21,500 bases of DNA from an uncultured Lachnospiraceae bacterium (GTDB lineage Bacteria > Bacillota > Clostridia > Lachnospirales > Lachnospiraceae), in NCBI GenBank assembly GCA_902803635.1, contig CADCQU010000350.1:1-21500 (forward strand). The letters are read 5' to 3'. Positions within the stretch are counted from its first letter, which is position 1. Each line of letters opens with the position of its first letter. Positions 2,260-21,491 of the stretch are shown here, in pieces. A model generated the notes under the pieces. It did not search any database. It was not told where the DNA came from and was given only the letters and a program-made list of their open reading frames with translations. The position numbers and the translations under genes were made by a program.

Positions 2260-3825
2260 ATGTCCCAGCCTGCGGAAAAGAGCAGAATGGAATACTCCAT
2301 GCGCAATTCCGCCGTCGGCATGGTTTCGAAGGTGGCTGCCATTTTGGCGGGGTATATTGCGCGCGTCGTTTTCGTACGGGTGATGACGACAGAGCTTGTC
2401 GGGCTGAGCGGGCTTTTGACGAACATCATCAACGCCCTGTCCCTGACGTCGCTTGGCGTGGAGGCCGCGCTCGTGTTCTCGCTCTATGCCCCGGTTGCCC
2501 GCGGTGATGAGGAAAAGCAGGCGTCCCTGATGGCACTTTTTAGGCGGGTGTACTATGTTTTCGCGGCGGTGGTGCTTTTATTTGGGCTGATCCTGTATAC
2601 ACTGCTGCCGATGATTCTGGGGGAAAAGACACAGATTGCCTCCCTTAGCATCATCTGCGCACTGTACGTGCTTAACTCCGTGTTGTCCTACTTCTGCTCG
2701 TACAGGCGCATGGCGTTTCTCTCGCATCAGTGCAACTATGTCAACGAGCTCTTCGATGCAACTTCGCTGATCGTCCTGAGCACGGTACAGTGTATCGTCC
2801 TTTTGCTGACGAGGAACTTTTTCCTGTATCTTCTTATTCCCGTTGTCTGTACCGTGACGGAGAACCTTTCCCTTTCGGCCCTCGCCGGGAGGTGGTACCC
2901 GTTTCTTCGGCGGTTCAATCCGCCCCCCGTTGAAAAGGGCGAGCGTCGTGAGATTATGGCCAACATCCGGGCGATGCTTATGCATAAGTTCGGACTCGTC
3001 ATCATTTCAAATACGGACAACGTGCTCTTGACTTGGCTGTTCGGCCTACTGGCCGTGGGCAGCTACGCGAACTATTATCTGATCACGGGTTCCGTCGCCC
3101 AGGTGCTCGACCGCTTCATCAGCGGGATCACTGGCAGCGTGGGCGATCTCGGCGTGAAGGTGGACCGCAAACATGTGGGAGAGGTATTCCGGCTGGCATT
3201 TTTCGCGACGGCATGGATCTACGGCCTTGCCGCGGTGTCGCTCTTCATCCTGTTGGACAACTTTATCGCCTTCAGCTTTGGGGAGACCTACGTGCTTGGG
3301 GGGATGTTAACGCTCGTTCTGTGTATGAACCTGTATCTTGACGGCGTGCGAAAGGCGACGCTCATCTTCCGCGACAGCCTGGGGCTCTTTCGATACGACC
3401 GCTTCAAGACACCCATCGAGGCGGCCGTCAACCTCGGCGCGTCCATCCTGCTGGCCCGCCATTTGGGGCCGGTGGGCGTCTTTCTCGGCACGACCGTGAG
3501 CGTGCTCCTCATCTCGTTCTGGGTGGAGCCCATCGTGCTCTACCGGGGGTACCTCAAGGAACCGGTGCGGTCCTATTTTGCAAGTTATTTCCTGTACCTT
3601 CCCGCGGTGGCATTTGCCGGCGCAGCCACCTGGTATATTTGTTCTTTTATCAATGGTGTCGGAGTTGTGCAGCTTCTGGCAAAGCTGATCGTGTGCCTGG
3701 TTCTGCCAAATGCGGTGATGGCGCTTTTTTTTCACCGGACGGCGGAGTATCGTGCGCTGCGTGAACGCGTTCTTTCCGCAGGAAAGCGTTTGCAGGCAAA
3801 AAGAAGGATGAGGAGAAGAAAATGA
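2260..3825 (+). CDS. Polysaccharide flippase, Wzx/MATE-like (MOP superfamily)
   Basis: The 521-residue polytopic protein probably moves lipid-linked saccharide across the cytoplasmic membrane. It has about 12-14 hydrophobic segments from residue ~20 to ~500 and a basic tail. The N-terminal pattern (SAVGMVSKVAAILAGYIARV, then TELVGLSGLLTNI and LGVEAALVFSLY) is typical of Gram-positive oligosaccharide flippases. Start ATG 2260 follows GTAGGAGGATTGT, a strong binding site. It is the first gene behind the consensus promoter, and its stop overlaps the PqqD-like gene by 4 nt (ATGA). It is notable because PelG, further down, belongs to the same transporter superfamily, so the cluster encodes two MOP-type proteins. 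That suggests a second lipid-linked substrate besides the Pel-type polymer. Family is secure; substrate is unknown. Confidence 0.85.
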   Translation: MSQPAEKSRMEYSMRNSAVGMVSKVAAILAGYIARVVFVRVMTTELVGLSGLLTNIINALSLTSLGVEAALVFSLYAPVARGDEEKQASLMALFRRVYYVFAAVVLLFGLILYTLLPMILGEKTQIASLSIICALYVLNSVLSYFCSYRRMAFLSHQCNYVNELFDATSLIVLSTVQCIVLLLTRNFFLYLLIPVVCTVTENLSLSALAGRWYPFLRRFNPPPVEKGERREIMANIRAMLMHKFGLVIISNTDNVLLTWLFGLLAVGSYANYYLITGSVAQVLDRFISGITGSVGDLGVKVDRKHVGEVFRLAFFATAWIYGLAAVSLFILLDNFIAFSFGETYVLGGMLTLVLCMNLYLDGVRKATLIFRDSLGLFRYDRFKTPIEAAVNLGASILLARHLGPVGVFLGTTVSVLLISFWVEPIVLYRGYLKEPVRSYFASYFLYLPAVAFAGAATWYICSFINGVGVVQLLAKLIVCLVLPNAVMALFFHRTAEYRALRERVLSAGKRLQAKRRMRRRK

Positions 3826-4103
3826 AGGACACGGTTTCCCGCCTCAAGGCACTCTCCGGAGACTGCATCCTGCGCCACGCGGCGGGGTACGACTGGCTTG
3901 TGCGCGTGAAGCAGGACAGTGCGAAGTATATCCAGCCTGTACTTCTCAACGAGGCAGGCACGGCCATTTGGCGTGCGATTTCCCTGGGCAAGGGGGAGGA
4001 GAAGCTCATTTCCATCCTTGCCGGGGACGAGAAGCCGACGGAGGAGACGCGCCAGGATCTGACGGAATTTCTTTTGCAGCTTTGTACGGCACTTGGCGGA
4101 TAA
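3822..4103 (+). CDS. PqqD-like small protein (RRE-type winged-helix fold)
   Basis: The 93-residue protein carries the PqqD signature in its centre: VLLNEAGTAIWRAIS, then a variable GKGEEKLISIL stretch, then an ETRQDLTEFLLQL helix. PqqD-fold proteins bind leader peptides of ribosomally made peptides (RiPP recognition elements). Relatives also occur alone in capsule and exopolysaccharide loci, where no role is established that I know of. It overlaps the flippase gene by 4 nt and lies 17 nt before the PelD-like gene, so it is translated with the export machinery. No radical SAM or other RiPP enzyme is in the window. Two possible partners are the NTP_transf_5 protein at 17544 and the leader-bearing proteins at 20053 and 20465. 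Family is confident; function is unknown. Confidence 0.85.
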   Translation: MKDTVSRLKALSGDCILRHAAGYDWLVRVKQDSAKYIQPVLLNEAGTAIWRAISLGKGEEKLISILAGDEKPTEETRQDLTEFLLQLCTALGG

Positions 4104-4120
4104 CATAATGAGGGATTGCT

Positions 4121-6355
4121 ATGAATGTACTTTTGATCGGAGCGGCTAGTGAACTGGCAAACCAGCTGATCAAAAAAATGAATAAAGAAGGGCATCGTGT
4201 TTCCATCCTAACGGGCTCCAGATACGCACAGGGAAAATACGAGCGCGTCTTCGAGCGATATGACTTTAACTATACGAACTCGGTCATGATGGAGATTTTC
4301 GAGAGCGTCGCGCCAGACGTGACGATTTACCTCGGTGCCTATGACCGCAACTACGGTTGGTGGAATGCGCAGGAGGACAGTGCCCGCTTTATCTCCGGCC
4401 TTATCAGCCTGCTGACGGCCTATGCCTTTTTTGGCAAGGGCAGGTTTTTCTTCCTTTCCAGCGAGGCCGTTTTTACCGGAGACGGGGAGAAAAAGGAGAC
4501 CGACAGACCGAACGCAAATGATTTTAAGGGGATGGCCTTTGCGCAGGGCGAGGCACTGTGCGACAGCTTTCGTCTAAGCCGTGATCTGGACATCATCAAC
4601 GTGCGCCTCGGCGGGCTGTACGGCGTGCCCCGCCGGCTGGAGGATGTGGACACCCTCCCGGCCGAATTTTGTCTTACGGCGCTGCGCGATGGACAGGTTT
4701 GTGCGCATGAGGACTGCAGCCGGACGCTCCTGCACGTGGCCGATGCCGTACAGTTTCTCGGACAAATGGTTGCCGCCCCGGTGCACAGGCACAGCCTGTA
4801 CCATATCACGGGGCAGGCCGTGAAGGAGGAAGAACTTGCCCGATTCGTGGCGGATGCCTTTGAAAGCCAGACGGCCGAGGAGGAGGAAAAGATGCACATC
4901 GAGGTCACGACCGTCCACGCGGCCTCGGAAAAAGATGCCCTCATGCGCGCCTTGAACTGCGACCGCTTCCGGAGGGAGTTCGGGATCAACCGCCTGAACG
5001 AGACGTCCGATATTGTTGGGCAGATTGTCCGGACGATGCTACGGCACAAGGACAGGTTTCTTGATAACGAGCAGGCGGCTCTGCCGTGGTACAAAAGGCT
5101 TTGGATGCGGGCGAGCTGGGTCGTACAGGCCATCCTTCCATTTCTTGAGAACCTGATTGCCTTTATCCCGTTTTTCCTGCTGAGCAACTACGCCGCAGGA
5201 AGCCAGTTTTTTGCGAAAATCGATTTTTACCTTCTGTACGTACTGCTTTTTGCCATTCTTTTCGGGCAGCAGCAGGCTACCTTTTCCGCGATTCTGGCGA
5301 CCTTCGGCTATCTTTTTCGGCAAATGCATGACCGTTCGGGTTTTGACGTTTTGCTTGATTACAACACCTACATCTGGATCGCCGAGCTCTTCATCCTTGG
5401 CCTGGTCGTCGGGTACCTGAAGGACCGCATCAACGACCAGCGCGTCGAGATGCGTGAGGATCACACGTACATGGTCGGGCAGGTGGACGATATTAAGGAG
5501 ATTAACTCCAGCAACGTCCGCGTAAAGGATGCGATGCAGACGCAGATCATCAACCAGTCCGACAGTGTTGGCAAGATTTACGAAATCACGTCCACGCTGG
5601 ACCAGTACAGCTACGACGAGGTGCTCTTCTTTGCGACCGAGATCCTGGGTCAGATCATGGGGAGCGACGACGTGGCCATCTACACGGTGAAGGGCGGCCC
5701 CTATGCCCGCCTTTTTACGGCTACATCCCCCCTTGCGCGCACGCTTGGAAATTCCATGCGCTACGTGGACCTTCCGGGACTCTACGACGAAATCTCGCAA
5801 AAGCATGTGTTTATCAATCGAAAGCTTGACCCGTCGCTTCCGAAGATGGCCAGCGCCATATACGATGACGGCGAGGTGCGCCTCCTTCTCCTTGTATGGA
5901 CGCTTCCCTGGGAAAAGATGACGCTGGGACAGGCAAATATCCTCGCCGTCACGGGGGCGCTCATCCAGAACGCCGTGCTGCACGCGAACCGCTATCTGGA
6001 AGCGTTGCATTCCGACCGGTATATCGGCGACACGCCCATCCTGCGGCCGAAGGAGTTCGGCTCGCTCCTACGGGCCTACCGCAAGGCGGAGGAGCGCGGC
6101 CTGACTGTCTACAGTGTCCTGGAGATCCTTCCCGGCGAACAGCGTCTTGAGAATCTGGGCGGCGATGTCAAGCACTTTATCCGCCCGAATGACTACGTGG
6201 GAGAGCTCGTCGACGACCGGATCATAATTTTATTGACAAATACGGACAAAGATGGCTGCAATACCGTCATGGACCGCCTTGCGCAAAAGGGCTTCAAAAC
6301 GGAGCATATCTATTTGACGGGAGAGGAAGAGGGACTATATGACACCGCTATTTGA
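4121..6355 (+). CDS. pelD: PelD-like c-di-GMP receptor with N-terminal SDR (epimerase-like) domain
   Basis: This 744-residue fusion is the likely c-di-GMP sensor of the synthase. Residues 1-~300 are an SDR/epimerase-like Rossmann fold. About four membrane helices follow (~333-434), then a coiled linker, a GAF domain (~480-620) and a degenerate GGDEF domain (~635-725). The active-site GGDEF is replaced by VDDRI (697-701), so no cyclase activity is expected, but the inhibitory-site RxxD is kept as RPND (688-691), just where PelD binds c-di-GMP. The SDR part looks inactive: the glycine motif reads GAASELA (7-13), and the positions of the catalytic YxxxK align with K136 and F140. ATG 4121 follows GAGGGA, and the end overlaps the next gene by 17 nt. 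In Pseudomonas, PelD activates polymer synthesis when c-di-GMP binds; the same is inferred here. Confidence 0.85.
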   Translation: MNVLLIGAASELANQLIKKMNKEGHRVSILTGSRYAQGKYERVFERYDFNYTNSVMMEIFESVAPDVTIYLGAYDRNYGWWNAQEDSARFISGLISLLTAYAFFGKGRFFFLSSEAVFTGDGEKKETDRPNANDFKGMAFAQGEALCDSFRLSRDLDIINVRLGGLYGVPRRLEDVDTLPAEFCLTALRDGQVCAHEDCSRTLLHVADAVQFLGQMVAAPVHRHSLYHITGQAVKEEELARFVADAFESQTAEEEEKMHIEVTTVHAASEKDALMRALNCDRFRREFGINRLNETSDIVGQIVRTMLRHKDRFLDNEQAALPWYKRLWMRASWVVQAILPFLENLIAFIPFFLLSNYAAGSQFFAKIDFYLLYVLLFAILFGQQQATFSAILATFGYLFRQMHDRSGFDVLLDYNTYIWIAELFILGLVVGYLKDRINDQRVEMREDHTYMVGQVDDIKEINSSNVRVKDAMQTQIINQSDSVGKIYEITSTLDQYSYDEVLFFATEILGQIMGSDDVAIYTVKGGPYARLFTATSPLARTLGNSMRYVDLPGLYDEISQKHVFINRKLDPSLPKMASAIYDDGEVRLLLLVWTLPWEKMTLGQANILAVTGALIQNAVLHANRYLEALHSDRYIGDTPILRPKEFGSLLRAYRKAEERGLTVYSVLEILPGEQRLENLGGDVKHFIRPNDYVGELVDDRIIILLTNTDKDGCNTVMDRLAQKGFKTEHIYLTGEEEGLYDTAI

Positions 6356-10044: not shown

Positions 10045-11421
10045 ATGAGAAAAAAGCGGTGGTGGCTGCTTTTGCTGGTTCTTGCGTTTCTGATTGTGGG
10101 GGGAATTATGTTCATGAGACACAGATGGTTCCGGGCGGCGGAGGCACTTTTGCTGACGGAATCGACCAGGATGCTGGAGACGGCGGACCAGGGCTTCTAC
10201 TACATCCATTGCTTTGAAATTTCGGACGAAATGGATGCTTCTACCCTGGTGGCCGAGAGCTACGGATGGGACAAGGACACGAAGCTAAGCCTCCTGGAGA
10301 TCAACCTGCGCCAATATACCCGCCAGCCGCTGTCCGAGGAGGCCCTTGCGAATACAAGGTCCCTCTTTGGCACCTTGCGGAAGGAGAAAAAACGCTACGT
10401 CGTCCGCTTCCTCTATGACCTGGAAGGGAAAAATATGGAGAACGAGCCGACGAGGCGATGCCTCATCGAGACACATATGCGTCAGCTTGGAGACATAGTA
10501 AATGAGAACAAGGACATCATCTACACGCTGCAGGGCCTGTTCATCGGGAACTGGGGCGAGATGAACGGTACCCGCTACACGGATATGGAGAGCCTGCGGG
10601 CTCTCAGCCGGACGTTGGCATCGGTCACGGACGACGACGTGTTCCTGTCCGTGCGGGTTCCGATGCAGTGGCGGCAGTGCACGGGGACGGAGCGCGTGAT
10701 TCCCGGGACCCTCACGGCGCGTCTTGGTCTCTTTAATGATGGCATGATGGGGAACGAGTACGACCTCGGCTCCTACGCCGTGGGGCGGAGGGACGACGTT
10801 GGCATCATCGGCAAATGGTGCCGGCAGGACGAGCTGGAATTCCAGGACAAGCTGTGCCGGTACGTGCCAAATGGCGGCGAGGTCGTGTATGACACGGAAT
10901 ACAACGACTTTGAAGCGGCCGTGGTGACGCTTGCGAAGATGCATGTGTCGTATCTGAACCTCGACTATGACCGTTCCGTTATAAACAAATGGAAGGCTTC
11001 CAAAGTCCGGGACGGTTCCGTCTGGGACGGGACGGATGGCCTGACGTATATGGACCGCCACCTAGGCTGCAGGTTTGTTGCCGACAAGGCCCGGATCGAC
11101 TATGCGTTCTTCCCCAATGAGCTTACGGTGACCGTGCCGCTGCGCAATGTGGGCTTCTCGCCGCTTTACCGGGAGGTACGGGCCGAGGCTGTCTTTGTCG
11201 GGACGGACGGCACGTTCGTGCTCCCGCTCGACGGAAATCTGCAGACAATCTGCAGCGGGGAGGGCACCGAGCTTGTCGGGAAACTTTCCCTGTCCGCGCT
11301 CAAGCGGGGGGATTACGACGTGTTCCTGCGGTTGACGGATCGGGAAGGCAAGGCTGTCGCCGTTGCCGTCGAGGAGGCAAGCTCGCCTGAGGTCCCGATC
11401 GGGAGGATCAGGGCAAAATGA
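10045..11421 (+). CDS. Membrane-anchored DUF4874/DUF4832 protein, glycosidase-like
   Basis: The 458-residue protein has a single N-terminal membrane anchor (~5-24, after basic RKKR), so the rest should lie outside the membrane. It follows the DUF4874 then DUF4832 pattern: QGFYYIH (residues 49-55) near the start, a RFLYD strand (~111-115), then GNWGEMNGTRY (148-158). The Glu in WGE (E152) is a candidate catalytic acid of a TIM barrel. DUF4832 proteins are distantly related to glycoside hydrolases, but no substrate is established to my knowledge. The binding site GAGGAGGACGACG precedes ATG 10045, and the end overlaps the DUF2194 gene by 4 nt. In this position it could replace the hydrolase domain of PelA, trimming polymer at the surface. 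That role is inference. Confidence 0.75.
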   Translation: MRKKRWWLLLLVLAFLIVGGIMFMRHRWFRAAEALLLTESTRMLETADQGFYYIHCFEISDEMDASTLVAESYGWDKDTKLSLLEINLRQYTRQPLSEEALANTRSLFGTLRKEKKRYVVRFLYDLEGKNMENEPTRRCLIETHMRQLGDIVNENKDIIYTLQGLFIGNWGEMNGTRYTDMESLRALSRTLASVTDDDVFLSVRVPMQWRQCTGTERVIPGTLTARLGLFNDGMMGNEYDLGSYAVGRRDDVGIIGKWCRQDELEFQDKLCRYVPNGGEVVYDTEYNDFEAAVVTLAKMHVSYLNLDYDRSVINKWKASKVRDGSVWDGTDGLTYMDRHLGCRFVADKARIDYAFFPNELTVTVPLRNVGFSPLYREVRAEAVFVGTDGTFVLPLDGNLQTICSGEGTELVGKLSLSALKRGDYDVFLRLTDREGKAVAVAVEEASSPEVPIGRIRAK

Positions 11422-13244
11422 TCTCAAGAAGGAATTATTTTTCAATCCTGCTCATTTTTATCGCGACACTGCTCCTCTTTCAGGGGACGCAGGTGGGCAA
11501 GGAGTACTGGAACGATTACAACGCCAAAAGCCCTTCCAAACCTACCTCGTTTACAAAGGTGTCCACGTGGACGTCGCCGGAGCTGTCATTTGACAAGGCC
11601 CTCCGGCGGGACGGCGTACTCTACGTCGGCAGCAAGGACGCCGCTTCGGCCAGTGTGGTGGAAGAGTGGGCGCGGTATGCAAAGAGGGCGTTTCGGCGCG
11701 TTGATAAGCTTCAGAAAAAGGTGCCAAATGTCCTGCCCGGGCTGGTGGTCGTACACGGGGACGCGCTGGAGGGAAATACGGAGGCGATTGAAAAATGGTG
11801 TGAGGCCGGTGCGACGGTGCTCTGCCTTGGCCTGCCCTCGCCGGAGATTGTGGTGAAGAGTGTGGCCCTTCGCCGGATGCTCGGCGTACGCTCCGTACGA
11901 AAGACACAGGTACACCTGGATGGTGTACACCTGTTCTCCGGCTTTCTGGTAGGCGGGGAACGCATTTACCAGGAGCAGGAGGAGGATTTGGAGGAAAAGC
12001 AGGATCTGGAGCTGGACGTACCGTGGTACACCGTTCGGGAAGGCACGAAGACGTATATGCGGGGAATCCTGCCGGAAGAGGAATGGGCGGAATATCAGGA
12101 GCAGGGACTGGAAAATGAGGATGGTCCGGCACTGATCTGGCGAAACGCCTATAAAACCGGCGTTGTCTTTGCCGTAGCCGGAGGTTACGGCGAGGATGGA
12201 AAGATGGCCATGGGGATATGCGCCGCAGCCCTCTCCCAGAGGGAGGAGACTCTTCTCTACCCCGTCGTGAACGCGTATGTCGTCTCGGTGCTGAATTTCC
12301 CTGTCTGCAGCAACGAGAACGGCGAGGTTCTGCTTGATATATACGGGCGGGAACTGACGGACCTGGAACGAAACATAATCCTGCCTTCCCTGATCTCGCT
12401 CTCCTCCACCTACGGCATCACGCCTACGGTATTTATGACGCCGCAGATGGACTACGACGATGGGAACGAACCGGATCCGGAGCTTTCCCATACTTTTTTA
12501 AGCCAGCTGAACGAGATTGGCAGCGAGGCGGCCTACGGGACGCAGACCCGGAGCATGACCTCGCTCGCAAACAAGCTGAAACTCGACGAGGACTACTTCC
12601 AGTCGGCAGGAATCCATTACGCTTTTGCCGCTACCGACACCATCGGAGCTTCCCTCTCGGAGCTCGGCGACGCGCTTCGGAATCCATTTCTGTCCGGCAT
12701 TTGCACGCTGCTTACGGAACCAGCGGAGGATCAGCCTCTTTTCGGGTACCAGTCCATGAAGGTCTCATACCAGCAGCTTACCTCATCAGCCGAGACGCAT
12801 ACCTTTCGGCAGGATTTGCAAATGCTCTGTCTGGAGACTGCCGTCGGCTACAGTAGCACCTTCTTTGACATGGAAAAGGTGTTTTGGCCGGAGACGGAGG
12901 AGGACGAATGGCAGAACGCCTCAAAACGCGTCTTCCGCAACCTTACGACCTACGGGGCGAAGTACAGCGAGAATGGCGCTGCCACCGTCTACGAGAGTGA
13001 CCGGCGGATCCGACGCTTCCTTGCGATGGACTATCGGGAAGAGAGGGAGGGGGACGTGCTTTCCGTGGAAATCACCAATTTCGAGGGGGAGGCGTGGTTT
13101 CTTCTCCGCTGTTTCAAGGAGGAGGTTGCCAAGGTCGTCGGGGGCGAGGCCGTGAAGCTGGAGGACGGTACTTTCCTGATTCGCGCCGACAATCCGAAGA
13201 TTGAGGTTTCGCTGAAACAACTGGACGTGTTATTGTACAGATAA
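11418..13244 (+). CDS. Membrane-anchored DUF2194 protein, PelA-deacetylase-like
   Basis: The 608-residue protein has one N-terminal anchor (~7-22) and is otherwise soluble, presumably outside the cell. It matches DUF2194, which occurs beside pelF/pelG in Gram-positive loci in the place of the PelA deacetylase. The first half (~60-290) is alpha/beta with a Glu-rich insert (~184-200). The second half has the deacetylase-like stretch TYGITPTVFMTPQMDYDDG (331-349) followed by LNEIGSEAAYGTQ (364-376). In metal-dependent deacetylases the latter region usually carries a histidine pair; here G368-S-E is followed by no His, and no clear DDD/TDD metal motif precedes it (NFPVCSNENGEVLLDIYG at 293-310). 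It may therefore be a carbohydrate-binding pseudo-enzyme. A 4-nt overlap couples it to the upstream gene. Confidence 0.7.
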   Translation: MISRRNYFSILLIFIATLLLFQGTQVGKEYWNDYNAKSPSKPTSFTKVSTWTSPELSFDKALRRDGVLYVGSKDAASASVVEEWARYAKRAFRRVDKLQKKVPNVLPGLVVVHGDALEGNTEAIEKWCEAGATVLCLGLPSPEIVVKSVALRRMLGVRSVRKTQVHLDGVHLFSGFLVGGERIYQEQEEDLEEKQDLELDVPWYTVREGTKTYMRGILPEEEWAEYQEQGLENEDGPALIWRNAYKTGVVFAVAGGYGEDGKMAMGICAAALSQREETLLYPVVNAYVVSVLNFPVCSNENGEVLLDIYGRELTDLERNIILPSLISLSSTYGITPTVFMTPQMDYDDGNEPDPELSHTFLSQLNEIGSEAAYGTQTRSMTSLANKLKLDEDYFQSAGIHYAFAATDTIGASLSELGDALRNPFLSGICTLLTEPAEDQPLFGYQSMKVSYQQLTSSAETHTFRQDLQMLCLETAVGYSSTFFDMEKVFWPETEEDEWQNASKRVFRNLTTYGAKYSENGAATVYESDRRIRRFLAMDYREEREGDVLSVEITNFEGEAWFLLRCFKEEVAKVVGGEAVKLEDGTFLIRADNPKIEVSLKQLDVLLYR

Positions 13245-13255
13245 GGATGGAGACT

Positions 13256-14719
13256 ATGCGCATTTGCATCGTGGCCGAGGGCTGTTATCCTTATACGGTG
13301 GGCGGTGTTTCGAGCTGGATCAACAGCATGATACGCAGCTTCCCGGAGGCTGAGTTCGTGGTCCTTGCCGTCGTGGCCAACCGCTCGCTGCGGGGGCAGT
13401 TTAAGTACGAGCTGCCCGACAATGTTTCGGAGGTGTACGAAGCGTACCTGGAGGACGTTGCCTGGGAAAAGGGCAGTGGACACCGGGGAAGCCGCCTGCC
13501 GAAGGACCAGTTCGAGGCGATCAGGAGCCTGGTCCTCAACGAGGAGTGCGACTGGGACACAATTTTCGAGATGTTCCAGCACCGTGCCCTGTCGGTGGAT
13601 GCGCTGCTCATGGGGGAGGATTTCCTGCGGATTACCTCGGAACTCTATGACAGGCGCTACCCGGAGATCGTATTTTCCGACTTCCTTTGGACGATGCGGT
13701 CCATCTATTTGCCGCTCTTCCTCGTGCTCCGGACGAACGTGCCGAAGGCGGACATCTACCACTGCGTGGCCACGGGGTACGCCGGCGTGCTGGGATGCCT
13801 GGCAAAGCATTTGTATGACTGCCGTCTTCTGGTGTCCGAGCACGGCATTTATACCCGCGAGCGAGAAGAGGAGATTATCAAGGCAACGTGGGTACAGAAC
13901 GTATACAAACGAATCTGGATTGAGCAGTTCTACCGCATGAGCCAGGTCACCTACGACCGCGCGGATATCGTGACGAGTCTGTTTGAGCAGGCGCGGGAGC
14001 TGCAGGTTGAGCTTGGCGCTCCGCGGGAAAAGCTCCGCGTGACGCCGAACGGGATTAACGAGGCACGCCTGTCCTCGCTCCCCGGGAAGACGGAGGCGGA
14101 TGAGGGCTTTGTCAACGTCGGCGCCGTCGTACGCGTGACGGCCATCAAGGATATCAAGACCATGATCCAGGCCTTTGCACAGGCAAAGAGCCGTGTGCCT
14201 TCCCTTAGGCTGTGGATCATGGGGCCGACGGAGGAGGAGCCGGAGTACGCCAGGGAGTGCTTCGACCTCGTGGAAATGCTGGAGCTGGAGGATGTGGTCT
14301 TTACCGGGCGCATCGACATCCACGACTACCTCGGACGCATGGACTTCATGCTCCTTACAAGCATCAGTGAGGGGCAGCCGCTGACAATCCTGGAGGGCTA
14401 CGCGGCCAGCAAACCGGTGGTCGCGACGGACGTGGGCAACTGCCGCGGGCTGATTTACGGGGAGGGCGATGATTTCGGCGATGCCGGGATCTTGTGCCAC
14501 ATCATGAACGTTGAGGAATTGAGCCACGCGATGATCGTCCTGGCAAGGGATCCAGCCCGCGTTTCGAGGATGGGGGAGGCGGGGTACAAGCGCGTGCTCA
14601 GCAAATACACGGCTCGGCAAATGCACGAGACATACGAGGCAATCTACCGGGAGCTGGCCGCCAAGGCGGGGCTTGCATGGCCGGAGGAGGGTGCCCCGGC
14701 GAAGGAGGAGGCGAGATAA
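13256..14719 (+). CDS. pelF: PelF, GT4 polysaccharide polymerase
   Basis: This cytoplasmic glycosyltransferase probably polymerises the Pel-type chain from a nucleotide sugar. The opening MRICIVAEGCYPYTVGGVSS is the hallmark of PelF. ATG 13256 is preferred over the in-frame ATG 13247, because AAGGATGGAG lies directly before 13256 while 13247 sits inside that site. Further features are SEHGIYTRERE (E195, H196), GAVVRVTAIKDIKTMI (a GT-B linker strand), MGPTEEEPEY, and the EX7E donor-site pair E372 and E380 in EGQPLTILE. At 487 residues it has the usual family length. The stop is immediately followed by the pelG start. In Pseudomonas, PelF is recruited to PelDEG; the same arrangement is expected here. 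Identification is strong. Confidence 0.95.
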   Translation: MRICIVAEGCYPYTVGGVSSWINSMIRSFPEAEFVVLAVVANRSLRGQFKYELPDNVSEVYEAYLEDVAWEKGSGHRGSRLPKDQFEAIRSLVLNEECDWDTIFEMFQHRALSVDALLMGEDFLRITSELYDRRYPEIVFSDFLWTMRSIYLPLFLVLRTNVPKADIYHCVATGYAGVLGCLAKHLYDCRLLVSEHGIYTREREEEIIKATWVQNVYKRIWIEQFYRMSQVTYDRADIVTSLFEQARELQVELGAPREKLRVTPNGINEARLSSLPGKTEADEGFVNVGAVVRVTAIKDIKTMIQAFAQAKSRVPSLRLWIMGPTEEEPEYARECFDLVEMLELEDVVFTGRIDIHDYLGRMDFMLLTSISEGQPLTILEGYAASKPVVATDVGNCRGLIYGEGDDFGDAGILCHIMNVEELSHAMIVLARDPARVSRMGEAGYKRVLSKYTARQMHETYEAIYRELAAKAGLAWPEEGAPAKEEAR

Positions 14720-16195
14720 ATGGCGGGTGTAGGTGTACGGCTCAACAAAATATTTGAAAAGCCCTCGCTGGTCGGCCATTTGTTCGGCTTCGGTTACAGC
14801 ACCATCCTCACCGTTGCGCCCATGTTCGTCGTCATCGGGGCGATTATCGTTTCGCAGGTGCTTCTGGACTACTCCACGGTGGACTACTTCCGGCGGGAGT
14901 TGTTTGCGGATACGGTGCTTTATATTTTCATCTTCTCACTGCTGTCGGCCTCGCCCTTCAACGCTGTGCTTTCGCGGTACCTTTCCGACGTGATCTTCAA
15001 CGAGAAGTATGATGACATCATGCCCTGCTTCTACGTTGGAATGACGATGAACGTTGCATTGGGCACGCTGGTCGCCCTGCCGTTTTGCATACACGAGCAC
15101 ATTGTAGGCGGGGTCGCAATTTATTACGTGTTTACGGGCTATTGCGGGTTCATGGCCCTCCTTCTCGTGTTCTACAACATGCTGTACCTGTCGATCACGA
15201 AGGACTATTTCAAGATTTCCCTCTGCTTTATCATCGGCATGTTGACGACGGTGTTTCTAGCCCTCGTTTTTGTGCGCGTCGTGCATCTGGAGCTGACGTA
15301 CGCGCTCCTCCTGGCACTGGTGCTGGGCTTCCTTTTCATCGCGACCATGGAGATTGCAATCATACGGTCGTACTTCCGCATGAACAGCGGGAATTACCGC
15401 GAGGTGCTGCATTACTTCCGGCTCTACGATAAGCTTATCCTCATAAACTTTTTGTATACGCTCGGCCTGTACATCCACAATTTCGTCTTCTGGACGACGG
15501 ACATGCATACGATTCTGGTGCGAAGCTTCGTAACGATGATGAGCTATGATATGGCGACTTGCCTGGCGATGTTCACGAATATCTCTGCCACCGTAATATT
15601 CATTTCCAGGGTGGAGATGCACTTTCACGAAGTGTACAAGTCCTACTCCGAGGCCGTCATCGGCGGACGGGGCAAGGACATCCGCAATACGAAGATGCGG
15701 ATGTTCCGCCGCCTTGCGGAGGAGCTGATGAGCCTTGCAAGGCTCCAGTTCATCATCACCGTGATTGTGTTCCTGATATGCCTCCTGATCCTGCCGCGTT
15801 TCGGGTTCGGTGGGGACACGATGCGTTTCTACCCCTGCCTTTGCGTGGGGTACTTCATGCTCTTCCTCATGTACTCAGAGATTCTGTTCATGTACTATTT
15901 CAACGATCTCTCCGGGGCGCTTTTGACAGCCTTCCTATTCTGTGTGCTGACGGCGATGGGCTCGATGCTGTCCTCCCGCATGCCGAAAATCTGGTTTGGG
16001 CTTGGGCTGGTCATCGGGGGCTTTATCGGTTTTACGGCAGGGTACCTGCGGCTAAGGTGGGTGGAACGAAACATAGACAGACATGTGTTCTGCCAGGGAA
16101 ATCTGCAGAAGAAGGGCGTTGGCAAAATGCCGGACAACAAGGTTTATGACCGCAATGCGGATAGGACACCAAAGAAGAGAGGTGATGCTTTATGA
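14720..16195 (+). CDS. pelG: PelG, inner-membrane exopolysaccharide exporter (MOP superfamily)
   Basis: The 491-residue protein has about 12 membrane helices and is the likely channel for the nascent polymer. Its start, MAGVGVRLNKIF, then LVGHLFGFGYSTILTVAPM, is characteristic of PelG. ATG 14720 abuts the pelF stop and follows a GAAGGAGG binding site, so the two are translated together. The end overlaps the DUF2304 gene by 4 nt (ATGA). After the last membrane helix it has an unusually charged tail of about 40 residues (WVERNIDRHVFCQ onward), compared with the roughly 456-residue PelG of Pseudomonas. It works with PelD and PelE in the membrane complex. The presence of pelD, E, F and G without pelB or pelC fits a single-membrane cell. 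Confidence 0.93.
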   Translation: MAGVGVRLNKIFEKPSLVGHLFGFGYSTILTVAPMFVVIGAIIVSQVLLDYSTVDYFRRELFADTVLYIFIFSLLSASPFNAVLSRYLSDVIFNEKYDDIMPCFYVGMTMNVALGTLVALPFCIHEHIVGGVAIYYVFTGYCGFMALLLVFYNMLYLSITKDYFKISLCFIIGMLTTVFLALVFVRVVHLELTYALLLALVLGFLFIATMEIAIIRSYFRMNSGNYREVLHYFRLYDKLILINFLYTLGLYIHNFVFWTTDMHTILVRSFVTMMSYDMATCLAMFTNISATVIFISRVEMHFHEVYKSYSEAVIGGRGKDIRNTKMRMFRRLAEELMSLARLQFIITVIVFLICLLILPRFGFGGDTMRFYPCLCVGYFMLFLMYSEILFMYYFNDLSGALLTAFLFCVLTAMGSMLSSRMPKIWFGLGLVIGGFIGFTAGYLRLRWVERNIDRHVFCQGNLQKKGVGKMPDNKVYDRNADRTPKKRGDAL

Positions 16196-17543: not shown

Positions 17544-18713
17544 ATGAAGCTGACAGATTATGAAGTTTATACCCTCTCCCTGCTGTCCCGGGCGCTTCGG
17601 GGCAAGAAGGGCGCCATAACCGACCTTCCGCAGGAAGTGGAACGGATTGCATCTCGGCACGGGGTGCTGCCGCTTCTCTATGATGCTGTTTCGCCCCCAG
17701 AGGATAGCCTGGTTGCCAGGGCGGCGGTGCAGTGTGTTAAGCAGAGCTATCATCTTTTAGTGGCCACGAAGAGGTACACGTCGCTCCTTAAGGAGGGGGG
17801 GTGCGATGTGGTCGTTTTGAAGGGGGCTTCTGTCGCTGCGCTTTATCCGGTACCGGAGTATCGCAAATCTGGAGATCTCGACCTGCTGCTCCGCAACAGG
17901 CACGAGTTTGAGCGGGCGGATGCACTGCTTCGGAAGGTTGGGGCCGTGGCAAATTCGTACCAGCATGCCAACCATCACATCGCCTATGAATTGCCCGACG
18001 GCTTCGAGCTGGAGCTGCATTTGTCGCTGGTGGAAGATTTTGACGATCGAGACTTGAATCGAAAGCTTGCTTCGATACAGAAGACGATGCGGGTTACGTC
18101 GTGTCCTGTGCTTGGAGTGGAATTGCCTGTGCTCGAAAAAGGAGCGCAGGCACTTTCGCTTCTCCTGCACATGCTACAGCATTTTTTGCTCTCCGGCTTT
18201 GGACTGAAGCTGCTGTGTGATTGGGTCTGCTTTTGGCGCGCAGGCGTGCCAAGGGCGGAGCGAGAGTGGTATCGCTCATGTGTTTCGAGACTTTGCCTTA
18301 CCGGATTTTCGGAGATTGTTACCGACGTATGCTGCCGTTATCTTGGGCTGTCGCGGAAAGCGGTGACCGATCTGCTTCCGGAGGATGGCGAGGAGCGTGT
18401 TGGATTGTGTGAAGACTTTATGCGGGAGGTTTTTGACGGGGAGGAGTTCGGCAAATCCTCCGATGACCGGATGGTCATGTTGCGCGGCTCGGGCGTAGCG
18501 GATTATGCCCGGGAGTTTCATCACCAGATGCACCTGAATTTTCCGAATGCAGGTCGCTGCCCGCTTTTATGGCCGGGGCTTTGGGCGTTCACGTTGGCCC
18601 GGTTTATGCGTAATAACCATCGCTACAGGGACACCAGCCTTCTTCGTGTGCTACGTTCCGCCGGAAAGCGCAGCAAGCTGTACAAACAAATGCGGCTGTT
18701 TGAGAAAGAATAA
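17544..18713 (+). CDS. Nucleotidyltransferase-fold protein (NTP_transf_5, PF14907-like)
   Basis: The 389-residue cytoplasmic protein has the family core VVLKGASVAALYP (90-102), then RKSGDLDLLL (107-116), with the acidic pair D111 and D113 expected to bind metal and nucleotide. A conserved ANHHIAYEL and ELELHLSL follow. Helices fill the C-terminal half, including LLHMLQHFLLSGFGLKLLCDW. Members occur in RiPP clusters and in polysaccharide clusters, often with a PqqD-like protein, as here. The reaction is unknown; transfer of a nucleotide to a protein, lipid or sugar is plausible. It follows the GT2 by 27 nt with only a weak GAGG site before ATG 17544, so coupling to the upstream gene is likely. 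Fold confidence is high. Confidence 0.82.
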   Translation: MKLTDYEVYTLSLLSRALRGKKGAITDLPQEVERIASRHGVLPLLYDAVSPPEDSLVARAAVQCVKQSYHLLVATKRYTSLLKEGGCDVVVLKGASVAALYPVPEYRKSGDLDLLLRNRHEFERADALLRKVGAVANSYQHANHHIAYELPDGFELELHLSLVEDFDDRDLNRKLASIQKTMRVTSCPVLGVELPVLEKGAQALSLLLHMLQHFLLSGFGLKLLCDWVCFWRAGVPRAEREWYRSCVSRLCLTGFSEIVTDVCCRYLGLSRKAVTDLLPEDGEERVGLCEDFMREVFDGEEFGKSSDDRMVMLRGSGVADYAREFHHQMHLNFPNAGRCPLLWPGLWAFTLARFMRNNHRYRDTSLLRVLRSAGKRSKLYKQMRLFEKE

Positions 18714-20052: not shown

Positions 20053-20436
20053 ATGGGCTATACAAAGCCGGTTGTGTTAATGAATGATGATCTTGGAGAG
20101 GGTGTTTACGCTGCGAGTGGCAGTACCTCGGAGACGGTGGATTACAGTCTCCGGGTTAACAGTGAAGGGAATCAATATTATAACTGGAATGGATATAATA
20201 TCGCCTTTACGAACAACACTGGCAAGACCCTGAGCACGTTTTCGGTTCGCCTTACATCCAACAAGAACATTTCTTCGGTTCAGGTTAATAATGGCCTTGT
20301 AACCGGAAGGATAGCAACTCCGACAACCTTGGAGCTTACATATAAGGCGACTGAAGATTGGGCAAAGCTTGCGCCTGGCAGTACATTTAATCTTTCATTT
20401 GCTGTTCAGGGCGACGTACCCTTTACTCTGCATTAA
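20053..20436 (+). CDS. Small leader-bearing beta-rich protein A (carbohydrate-binding-module-like)
   Basis: I do not recognise a named family. The 127-residue protein starts at ATG 20053, 9 nt after AGGGAGG; the ATG at 20046 is out of frame. Residues 1-23 form a segment (KPVVL at 5-9, EGVYAASG at 16-23) shared with the next gene. The rest looks like one beta-sandwich: alternating strands such as YNIAFTNNTGKTLSTFSVRL, an ISSVQVNNG turn, and LAPGSTFNLSFAVQGD near the end. This is reminiscent of CBM2-like cellulose-binding modules, with several exposed aromatics (YYNWNGY). There is no Sec signal, membrane helix or Cys. I infer export through a leader peptidase and binding to the polysaccharide made by the neighbouring cluster. 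The gene is A+T-richer than those upstream and has a strong promoter. Confidence 0.8.
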   Translation: MGYTKPVVLMNDDLGEGVYAASGSTSETVDYSLRVNSEGNQYYNWNGYNIAFTNNTGKTLSTFSVRLTSNKNISSVQVNNGLVTGRIATPTTLELTYKATEDWAKLAPGSTFNLSFAVQGDVPFTLH

Positions 20437-20464
20437 TTGTTTACATCAAGAAGGAGGTAAGATT

Positions 20465-20848
20465 ATGAACAACAAGCCGATGATTTTGACAAATGAAGAT
20501 ATGGCGGAGGGCATTTATGCCGCGAGCGGTGATGGTTGCTATACCACGACAGCTTATATCCACCAGAAACCCGAAACTGGCCGTGGTGACTACCGTATCC
20601 AGGTTGATGCGAAGCATCACGCAGACCATACGAAGGATGTTCAGTGGCTCCACATCTCCTTTAACAAGCCTGTCGTCTATGTCAGCTGCAATGCTAATGG
20701 CGCTCAGTTGGAGAGCGGAAACGGTTCTACGACACTCGTAATCCGTATGACGTACCACCAGAATCCGACCGATAATATTGGCTTCGGTGATTTGATTGTG
20801 ACCGCTGATGCCGGACTTGCCATTACCGGTCAGTACACGGTGGACTGA
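20465..20848 (+). CDS. Small leader-bearing beta-rich protein B
   Basis: The product is unrecognised. It is also 127 residues long. A full AAGGAGGT site (20451-20458) lies 6 nt before ATG 20465. Residues 1-22 match protein A closely (NKPMIL, N10, D12, EGIYAASG at 15-22), but the body is unrelated in sequence: a variable region with one Cys (C25), then QWLHISFNKPVVYVSCN, then LESGNGSTTLVIRM and LIVTADAGLAITGQYTVD. It is beta-rich with two Cys that could pair outside the cell. The same body occurs in the broken gene at 21134. It follows protein A by 28 nt and is probably cotranscribed, and a terminator lies 142 nt downstream. A conserved leader on two different bodies is what modular export or modification substrates look like. 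A polysaccharide-associated or surface role is inference. Confidence 0.8.
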   Translation: MNNKPMILTNEDMAEGIYAASGDGCYTTTAYIHQKPETGRGDYRIQVDAKHHADHTKDVQWLHISFNKPVVYVSCNANGAQLESGNGSTTLVIRMTYHQNPTDNIGFGDLIVTADAGLAITGQYTVD

Positions 20849-21133: not shown

Positions 21134-21491
21134 ATGGCTAATGAAACAAGAAATTCAAGAATCGAACGCAGGAAGGTATTCATCACCGAAGCAACCGGAA
21201 TGATTATGGAAAGCTTCTTTAATGTTTTATGATAAAAAAACAAACGAAGAAAAGATTGTTACTGCAGAGCACAGGAAGACTACGCAGTGGATTCATATTT
21301 CGTTCAATCAGGTTGTTACTTTTGTAAGCTGTGATAACCATGAGGCTGAGCTTGAGAGTGGCGATGGTACGGTGACTTTGGTGCTTGTAAAGCATGAGTA
21401 TTCGAGTCATGCGGACAGTATTGGCATTAGCAAACTGGTTGTAAATGCTGGTCCGGGCCTTGCCATTGTAAATGTGTTTACAACGGATTGA
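21134..21491 (+). pseudogene. Frame-disrupted relative of leader-bearing protein B
   Basis: The C-terminal part, open from 21204 and with an ATG at 21222, is clearly homologous to protein B: QWIHISFNQVVTFVSCD, then ELESGDGTVTLVL, then LVVNAGPGLAIVNVFTTD. The only well-placed start, ATG 21134 after GGAGG, opens a different frame that stops after 33 codons (TGA at 21233-21235). The downstream frame has its own stop at 21201-21203. In the third frame, EGIHHRS is encoded from 21172, about where protein B has EGIYAAS, so the leader may survive as a remnant behind a small deletion. At least one and perhaps two frameshifts are needed to join the parts. Alternatives are an 89-residue leaderless protein from 21222, sequence errors, or a silent cassette. 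Confidence 0.65.

Follow-up and report, generated by a model that had tools for sequence, protein, structure and literature searches.

Two small proteins with a shared leader beside a Pel-type locus: probable precursors of an LPP-like modification and export pathway, mainly in Lachnospiraceae

Matrix proteins bearing a Sec signal are served by an ER-type signal peptidase in the SipW-TasA system. The linear polyphosphorylated peptides (LPP) were described by Popov et al. (Nat Commun, May 2026; PMC13381572), whose report is used here as far as its text was available. LPP precursors, encoded in capsule loci of Bacilli, are 35-200 residues long; they are conserved at the N terminus and vary at the C terminus, and their leaders follow the consensus YxxPxVLxHQxIxFETxxS. 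Three residues of LppB contact the leader: Asn33 fixes its backbone about the Pro, Asp70 bonds the Tyr, and Phe74 packs on the Pro. The kinase puts several phosphates on Ser3 of the core, and a SipW-like peptidase, aided by the RRE, cuts so that two residues are left before Ser3, with a preference for the phosphorylated form. By the authors' statement, the role of LPP is unknown and a role in biofilms is speculation only. Lachnospir-, Clostridia, Pel, carbohydrate-binding and phage are not mentioned in the main text, as far as available.

Related chemistry has been described, in the accessible parts of the respective papers, for the phosphorylated or phosphoglycosylated lasso peptides paeninodin, pseudomycoidin and Bsf (PMC8498205, PMC10368454, PMC5067487). 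Pseudomycoidin carries hexoses on the phosphate, reportedly added by the nucleotidyltransferase of the cluster (PMC8498205). The Gram-positive Pel operon has the order pelDEADAFG, and Roseburia Pel loci with a phosphotransferase and a nucleotidyltransferase are mentioned; in the available main text of that paper there is no PqqD, ABC transporter or signal peptidase, and its accessible passages do not mention leader proteins (PMC7112168).

The window, i.e. the whole 21.5-kb stretch of DNA analysed (contig C350 of a genome that is 88.65% complete), has near its end two ORFs of 127 aa located 3' of a Pel-type polysaccharide locus (Table 1). The proteins start alike, MGYTKPVVLMNDDLGEGVYAASG in protein 1 and MNNKPMILTNEDMAEGIYAASG in protein 2, and their remainders are dissimilar. 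This had been pointed out in an earlier note on this DNA, and both ORFs do exist. The likeness exceeds chance: a loose DNA pattern of the leader core had only two sites in the source genome, one in each of them, and the pattern read backwards as a control had 0. By eye neither protein has a Sec signal, in agreement with the earlier note. Searches of Pfam and NCBIfam gave no convincing family for protein 1 or protein 2. For protein 1 a single near-identical entry was found among the 5.8 billion proteins of one database, and 509 proteins matched protein 2 at E <= 1e-3 by similarity of the body. Behind protein 2, positions 21134-21491 hold a short ORF of about 32 codons followed by a leaderless class A body, apparently a decayed third copy. 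An IS insertion between protein 2 and this copy was considered and is not supported, because the DNA at 21020-21240 matches only itself in the genome.

Table 1. Features of the window and cargo genes at other loci
Feature	Position	Strand	Description
Leader-bearing protein 1	20053..20436	+	127 aa; leader residues 1-23, then CBM2-like beta-sandwich body (predicted)
Leader of protein 1	20053..20121	+	YTKPVV (YxxPxV) ... EGVYAASG
Leader-bearing protein 2	20465..20848	+	127 aa from ATG at 20465; leader residues 1-22, then class A beta-sandwich body (predicted)
Leader of protein 2	20465..20530	+	motif Tyr replaced by Asn, Pro retained
Third class A body, no leader	21222..21491	+	42% identical to protein 2; apparently decayed
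Discrete PqqD-like RRE, LppB-like	3822..4103	+	93 aa; Pfam PqqD E 1e-4, 23.0 bits against a cut-off of 23.4
PelD-like protein	4121..6355	+	N-terminal epimerase (Pfam Epimerase 2e-13); C-terminal GGDEF 0.0045, below cut-off
DUF4874/DUF4832 protein	10045..11421	+	domain matches; also near leaders in 8/69 loci
DUF2194 protein	11418..13244	+	domain match
PelF glycosyltransferase	13247..14719	+	NF038011, 377 bits, cut-off 100
PelG-like membrane protein	14720..16195	+	named by position beside PelF; no NCBIfam match
NTP_transf_5 nucleotidyltransferase-like, LppN-like	17544..18713	+	Pfam E 7e-33; homologue in 33/69 leader loci
Class C cargo loci	L020, L025, L030, L050, L052, L054, L063, L073, L076, L081, L087, L101
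Phage-contig cargo gene examples	L097:7519-7917, L100:7060-7458, L101:609-1016

The leader occurs well beyond the two window proteins. A stricter DNA pattern was found in 7 of 150 genomes of the family, the backwards control being 0 in every row, and a 24-column leader model, in which both window leaders are contained so that their own scores follow by construction, had matches in 18 of 299. The DNA pattern also gave 6 stretches in IMG/VR and 84 in GTDB genomes; of the latter 80 were listed, 45 of them with titles that name Lachnospiraceae. Out of 104 pattern matches 90 were retained as leader ORFs and 14, which had no upstream leader or no start codon, were discarded. A search of proteins with the leader alone returned 23; three of these are labelled CBM_2, and P0144 has yet another kind of body. 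No match to the leader was found in the PDB, and the literal string EGVYAASG is absent from open-licence PMC papers. The leader of about 23 residues, YxxPx[V/I]..AEGVYAASG, sits on at least four kinds of body among which no relation is detectable, mainly in Lachnospiraceae. The conserved leader on swapped cargo that the earlier note had seen in two proteins is thus a wider arrangement.

In the DNA-selected set the last eight residues of the leader are fixed by the pattern and the upstream Pro was demanded by the filter, and unbiased figures for conservation come from class A proteins found by body similarity, 120 of the 509 being listed. Among these, E-[GNA]-[VIL]-[YF] is kept in 119 of 120 and, where it is kept, Ser at -2 in 118 of 119; the leader Pro is present in 115/117, the Tyr in 106/117 and V/I/L in 116/118. 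Variant ends in other genomes (EGVFAASG, ENVFASSG, EGVYAGSG, EGVFMASG, EAVYAESG) retain the aromatic residue and the Ser-Gly. Leaders carried by different bodies showed no significantly greater likeness within a genome than between genomes, either in an ungapped comparison (equalled or exceeded in 654 of 2000 permutations) or in a gapped comparison of all 83 leaders, which gave 0.578 within and 0.509 between genomes (129/2000 as high). When class F, whose leader is shorter, was left out, the gapped values were 0.704 and 0.536 with 1/2000 permutations, an exclusion chosen after seeing the data.

Bodies were assigned to classes A-F by hand-written signature motifs, 89 of 92 being long enough. 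The six classes comprise 27, 29, 12, 4, 7 and 3 bodies, and 7 are unassigned, one of them resembling class B. Comparison of the class profiles by hhalign related A with B at 97%; the other 14 of 15 pairs reached at most 37% (B with F the highest). Lax clustering with phmmer fused A, B and D in a single group that contained 64 of the 89 bodies. Since profile comparison upholds this merger for A and B only, we speak of at least four kinds with no detectable relation. The class C body is small and rich in Cys (CDSxYMNG..GCLGCPA..), unlike the beta-sandwich classes.

The earlier note had proposed beta-sandwich, perhaps glycan-binding bodies, and the structure predictions agree with it. In the AlphaFold models of protein 1 (pLDDT 77) and protein 2 (pLDDT 78) the bodies are confident beta-sandwiches, and residues 1-26 and 1-18, respectively, are below 50; both leaders are thus predicted to be disordered. 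The best PDB fold match of protein 1 (Foldseek) had E 7e-4 and a TM of about 0.5, and its top ten consisted of seven CBM2 or CBM3 chains, two chitinases and one adaptor domain. With protein 2 only three matches reached E 0.001; the top seven were two C. perfringens chitinases, one adhesin domain and four CBM2 chains (C. fimi with TM up to 0.67 on the target, EngD 0.66), and from rank 8 onward adaptor-protein domains were common. Pfam CBM_2 was matched at 0.01 by 12 of 14 class E sequences, and solved CBM2 chains were the best PDB matches of the class E profile. Protein 1 itself had no match to CBM_2 at 0.01 and is only moderately linked to class E, at 19 bits compared with 16 for the best shuffled sequence. 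Both window bodies are thus predicted to resemble carbohydrate-binding modules.

A Pel-like matrix locus in the window, also proposed in the earlier note, is supported by PelF, which scores above its cut-off; PelD was recognized by its domains and PelG by position only. The DUF2194 protein may have a PelA-like role. Homologues of PelD, PelF or PelG were present in 7 of 20 wider loci (L112-L131). The discrete RRE beside the PelD-like gene has Asn43, Asp79 and Phe83 at the positions of N33, D70 and F74 of LppB. Compared with solved RREs, its profile (A10) matched TbiB1 at 9e-6, TfuB1 at 1e-5 and 9x90 at 4e-4, and LppB (9x8z) at 0.012, near the unrelated cofilin at 0.02.

Neighbouring genes were counted at the 69 leader loci that passed a strict filter (about 2-12 kb each, mostly 8 kb); nine of the 90 leader ORFs were recovered later with a looser filter and lie outside these counts. 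One ABC subfamily was found near 51 of the 69 loci, NTP_transf_5 near 33, a flippase near 19, an S26 peptidase near 18 and a Stealth phosphotransferase near 13. The profile of a PqqD-kinase fusion matched in 33 loci, possibly including some discrete PqqD proteins, and an earlier clustering of the same 69 loci had given 54 for the ABC, 28 for the fusion and 18 for S26. At 14 loci none of ABC, fusion and S26 was within reach. A modification or export module near the leaders, as the earlier note had supposed, is therefore recurrent. An apparent pair of histidine kinase and response regulator was also noticed by eye near the leader in several Lachnospiraceae (L017, L055, L062, L074; clusters c10 and c11).

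In the linked ABC transporter only ABC_membrane and ABC_tran are convincing, and there is no C39 domain; the best NCBIfam match of the ABC fragment from the window's own genome was MsbA_rel, far below its cut-off. Among 15 fusions PqqD was matched in all and HprK_rel_A in 9, with weak scores (best 3e-4). The kinase part has the His and the G-G-G-K-S in the same spacing as BsfK, the Asp being shifted by one; as a single-sequence query against the PDB the fusion gave nothing useful. For the PqqD parts there are matches among solved lasso RREs and a weak one to LppB. In the own-genome fusion the Asn and the Phe are retained, and Glu stands in place of the Asp that holds the leader Tyr in LppB. 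The S26 protein scored 34 bits with the archaeal/ER-type signal peptidase model TIGR02228, 23 bits with the NiSOD maturation protease model and 17 bits with the SipW model, all below cut-off. Its Ser and His are kept, and a GD that may supply the acidic catalytic residue follows the His by 15 residues versus 25 in LppS.

In the genome of the window another contig, C356, carries an ABC gene that has 64% identity to the L015 one and is truncated by a contig end, followed by the fusion (1427-2710) and S26 (3019-3543). At locus L121, in a relative, the named genes are arranged as DUF2194, PelF, PelG, GT2, NTP_transf_5, leader, leader, ABC, fusion and S26, with unnamed ORFs interspersed, an order that corresponds to the end of C350 followed by C356; L116 is similar. 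The two contigs do not overlap, therefore their adjacency is deduced from the synteny with L121 and L116. The gene adjoining S26 on C356 (L111:3842-6472) encodes a protein of 876 aa with a signal peptide apparent by eye; its mature part opens with a near-eukaryotic, closely polyubiquitin-like ubiquitin domain (Pfam 1e-26), and GLUG and Listeria-Bacteroides repeats were matched as well.

At the level of genomes, the fusion profile exceeded 350 bits in 16 of 299, and 15 of these 16 carry the leader versus 3 of the 283 others (Fisher 2e-21), an agreement that is partly built in because leader-linked members had gone into the profile and the line at 350 bits was chosen after viewing the list (next score 216). 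At E <= 1e-10 the profile matched in 73 of the 299, many in the kinase part only. The sixteenth fusion genome (G096) has a variant leader ORF with AEGIYAGSG between ABC and fusion, spotted afterwards by eye. Three leader genomes lie outside the 16: G213, where ABC and S26 accompany a fusion that has diverged; G047, with a broken fusion and a partial leader; and G146 (68% complete), which gave no fusion match. Culturable relatives with the module are Coprococcus catus, Fusicatenibacter saccharivorans and Anaerobutyricum hallii. Leader, ABC and kinase fusion are also present in the actinobacterium Olsenella porci (L078), which suggests transfer of the module between phyla.

Leader-bearing cargo genes were also observed on five IMG/VR virus contigs (L096, L097, L098, L100, L101). 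Terminase genes are close by in L097 and L100, together with a portal gene in L100 and with exonuclease and ClpP-like protease genes in L097. None of the five virus records, which are possibly fragments, encodes an ABC_membrane protein, and two of the phage cargo proteins had no match in cultured-phage records. Phages may use the machinery of the host for their cargo.

Taking the leader, the swapped bodies, the gene linkage, the RRE residues and the predicted folds together, all of them obtained by computation, we consider it likely that proteins 1 and 2 are precursors of an LPP-like, leader-guided modification and export pathway tied to the Pel-type matrix locus. By analogy with the LPP and lasso literature, a PqqD-type RRE would capture the disordered leader at its Y-x-x-P-x-[V/I/L]; this could be the discrete RRE of the window or the kinase-fused one on C356. 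The tethered HPr-kinase-like domain would then phosphorylate the invariant Ser of [YF]-x-x-S-G. Counted from the leader Pro this Ser is one residue later than Ser3 of LPP and is therefore read as the phosphate acceptor, a role that the analogy makes more likely for it than that of a cleavage-site residue. The S26 peptidase (ER/SipW-type, Ser-His) would remove the leader shortly before the Ser, at VY|AAS or YAA|SG: the former would leave two residues before the Ser, the latter would follow an aromatic-x-small pattern, and either may apply. Further steps we infer only: the NTP_transf_5 protein may put a sugar onto the Ser phosphate, and the C39-less ABC transporter would export the CBM-like body, which would bind or be joined to the Pel-like polysaccharide. 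Against the pathway stand the missing motif Tyr of protein 2 and the Glu that the own-genome fusion has for the Tyr-holding Asp of LppB. So do the 14 of 69 loci with no ABC, fusion or S26 nearby, the leader genome G146 with no fusion match, the absent second half of the LPP leader consensus, the sub-threshold S26 scores and the modest link of protein 1 to CBMs. A more far-reaching version is tentative and rather doubtful. In it the RRE-tethered kinase would act together with NTP_transf_5 or Stealth phosphotransferases, and the conserved N-terminal Ser of the CBM-like proteins that are exported would receive from them a glycan joined by a phosphodiester, which would anchor these proteins to Pel-type polysaccharide; any folded domain with the 23-residue leader would be a substrate, and phages would add cargo of their own.

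Other readings of the leader were weighed against this pathway. The earlier note had proposed, next to RiPP precursors, a double-glycine leader, after whose SG a C39-peptidase ABC transporter would cleave to export the body, and had suggested looking for such transporters or modifying enzymes nearby. Glu at -8 and Gly at -1 do fit, and the genome has one C39 ABC protein. This protein is encoded on a separate contig (C309), however, and the ABC linked to the leader has no C39 domain; nor was Peptidase_C39 among the 25 of 53 families listed for neighbouring proteins (95 of 167 listed). The C39 domain uses hydrophobic side chains at -4, -7 and -12 of the leader (PMC6363468, available part), whereas here these positions are A, G and mostly E/D, and the leader ends in SG, not in GG, GA or GS. 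With the linked ABC lacking C39 and these positions not hydrophobic, double-glycine export was rejected as highly improbable. The leader, the swapped cargo, the nearby module, the folds and the Pel locus of that interpretation stand. The sole C39-peptidase ABC match of the genome (L011) adjoins another ABC gene on a short contig. It would be harder still to credit that all bodies share a single continuous domain to which the leader contributes the first strand, even though classes A and B are homologous, lax clustering joins A, B and D, models of class A and class E bodies resemble the same CBM folds, and DSSP places a low-confidence strand at residues 3-8 of the protein 1 model. This explanation was rejected on the low pLDDT of the leader in both models and on the class pairs, most of which have no detectable relation, the Cys-rich class C being unlike the rest.

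A role of the S26 peptidase limited to trimming the leader in the manner of the NiSOD maturation protease or SipW while the RRE-kinase regulates and no lasting modification is made, accords with the sub-threshold matches to these two models and with [YF]-x-[small] ahead of the Ser, which suits a signal peptidase. We judge it unlikely, as among the short loci the fusion is more frequent than the peptidase (28 versus 18 of 69) and as in LPP, according to the available text, the precursor is modified by the kinase before a peptidase that favours its phosphorylated form. The leader might instead serve as an adaptor tag in the cytoplasm, by which regulatory CBM-like proteins dock onto polysaccharide enzymes with neither cleavage nor export, a reading compatible with the Sec signal not being visible by eye and with phage contigs that have leader genes and no ABC_membrane protein. 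An exporter of one subfamily in 51 of 69 loci with a peptidase adjoining, and carbohydrate-binding-type folds of little obvious use inside the cell, make such a tag very unlikely. The LPP-like pathway is thus the preferred reading. If it is true, it takes RRE-guided modification beyond small peptides to folded proteins as a whole, implies a leader transferable between proteins, and explains how small CBM-like proteins without a Sec signal arrive at the surface of gut and rumen bacteria. The leader with its set of kinase, peptidase and transporter suggests that these bacteria modify and export whole proteins for a slime matrix, and since LPP-type machinery stands here with recognizable carbohydrate-binding-type cargo beside a Pel-type operon, its role is directly testable.

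With LPP, as described in the available text, the window system has in common an RRE, an HprK-like kinase, an NTP transferase, a putative SipW-like peptidase and an MsbA-like exporter, so the statement of the earlier note that no system of this form had been described no longer holds. Both also have a YxxPxV leader start, a conserved N terminus with variable C termini, a location in polysaccharide loci and a Ser shortly after the leader, and the leader-binding Asn, Asp and Phe recur in the window RRE. YxxPx[V/L/I] is present in protein 1, and in protein 2 except for the Tyr. In contrast, the second half of the leader is AEGVYAASG instead of HQxIxFETxxS, and the system is therefore not filed as a strict LPP member. 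Unlike in LPP, the RRE is fused to the kinase, with a discrete RRE in the Pel operon in addition; the cargo consists of predicted folded domains, one class being CBM2, with cargo genes also on phage contigs; and the system is found mainly in Lachnospiraceae and at a Pel-type locus.

The lasso peptides discussed above share with it, in the parts of the papers that were available, a Y/WxxPxL-type leader, a discrete PqqD RRE, an HPr-kinase homologue, a nucleotidyltransferase and an ABC exporter. They differ in cargo, which here is a domain of about 100 residues, and neither the lasso macrolactam synthetase nor the B2 peptidase was among the 25 of 53 families listed for 95 neighbour proteins. PelF, the PelG-like protein, the epimerase-PelD and the DUF4832 neighbours are common to the window and the Gram-positive Pel operon, as far as the latter is described in the accessible text. 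The putative ER-type signal peptidase is as in SipW-TasA, with an RRE-type leader and an ABC exporter instead of the Sec signal. Compared with CBM2 (PF00553), which most class E bodies match (see above), the cargo is freestanding, having neither a catalytic domain nor a visible Sec signal. The system is best called an LPP variant with a kinase-fused RRE and folded CBM-like cargo, found mainly in Lachnospiraceae and at Pel-type loci.
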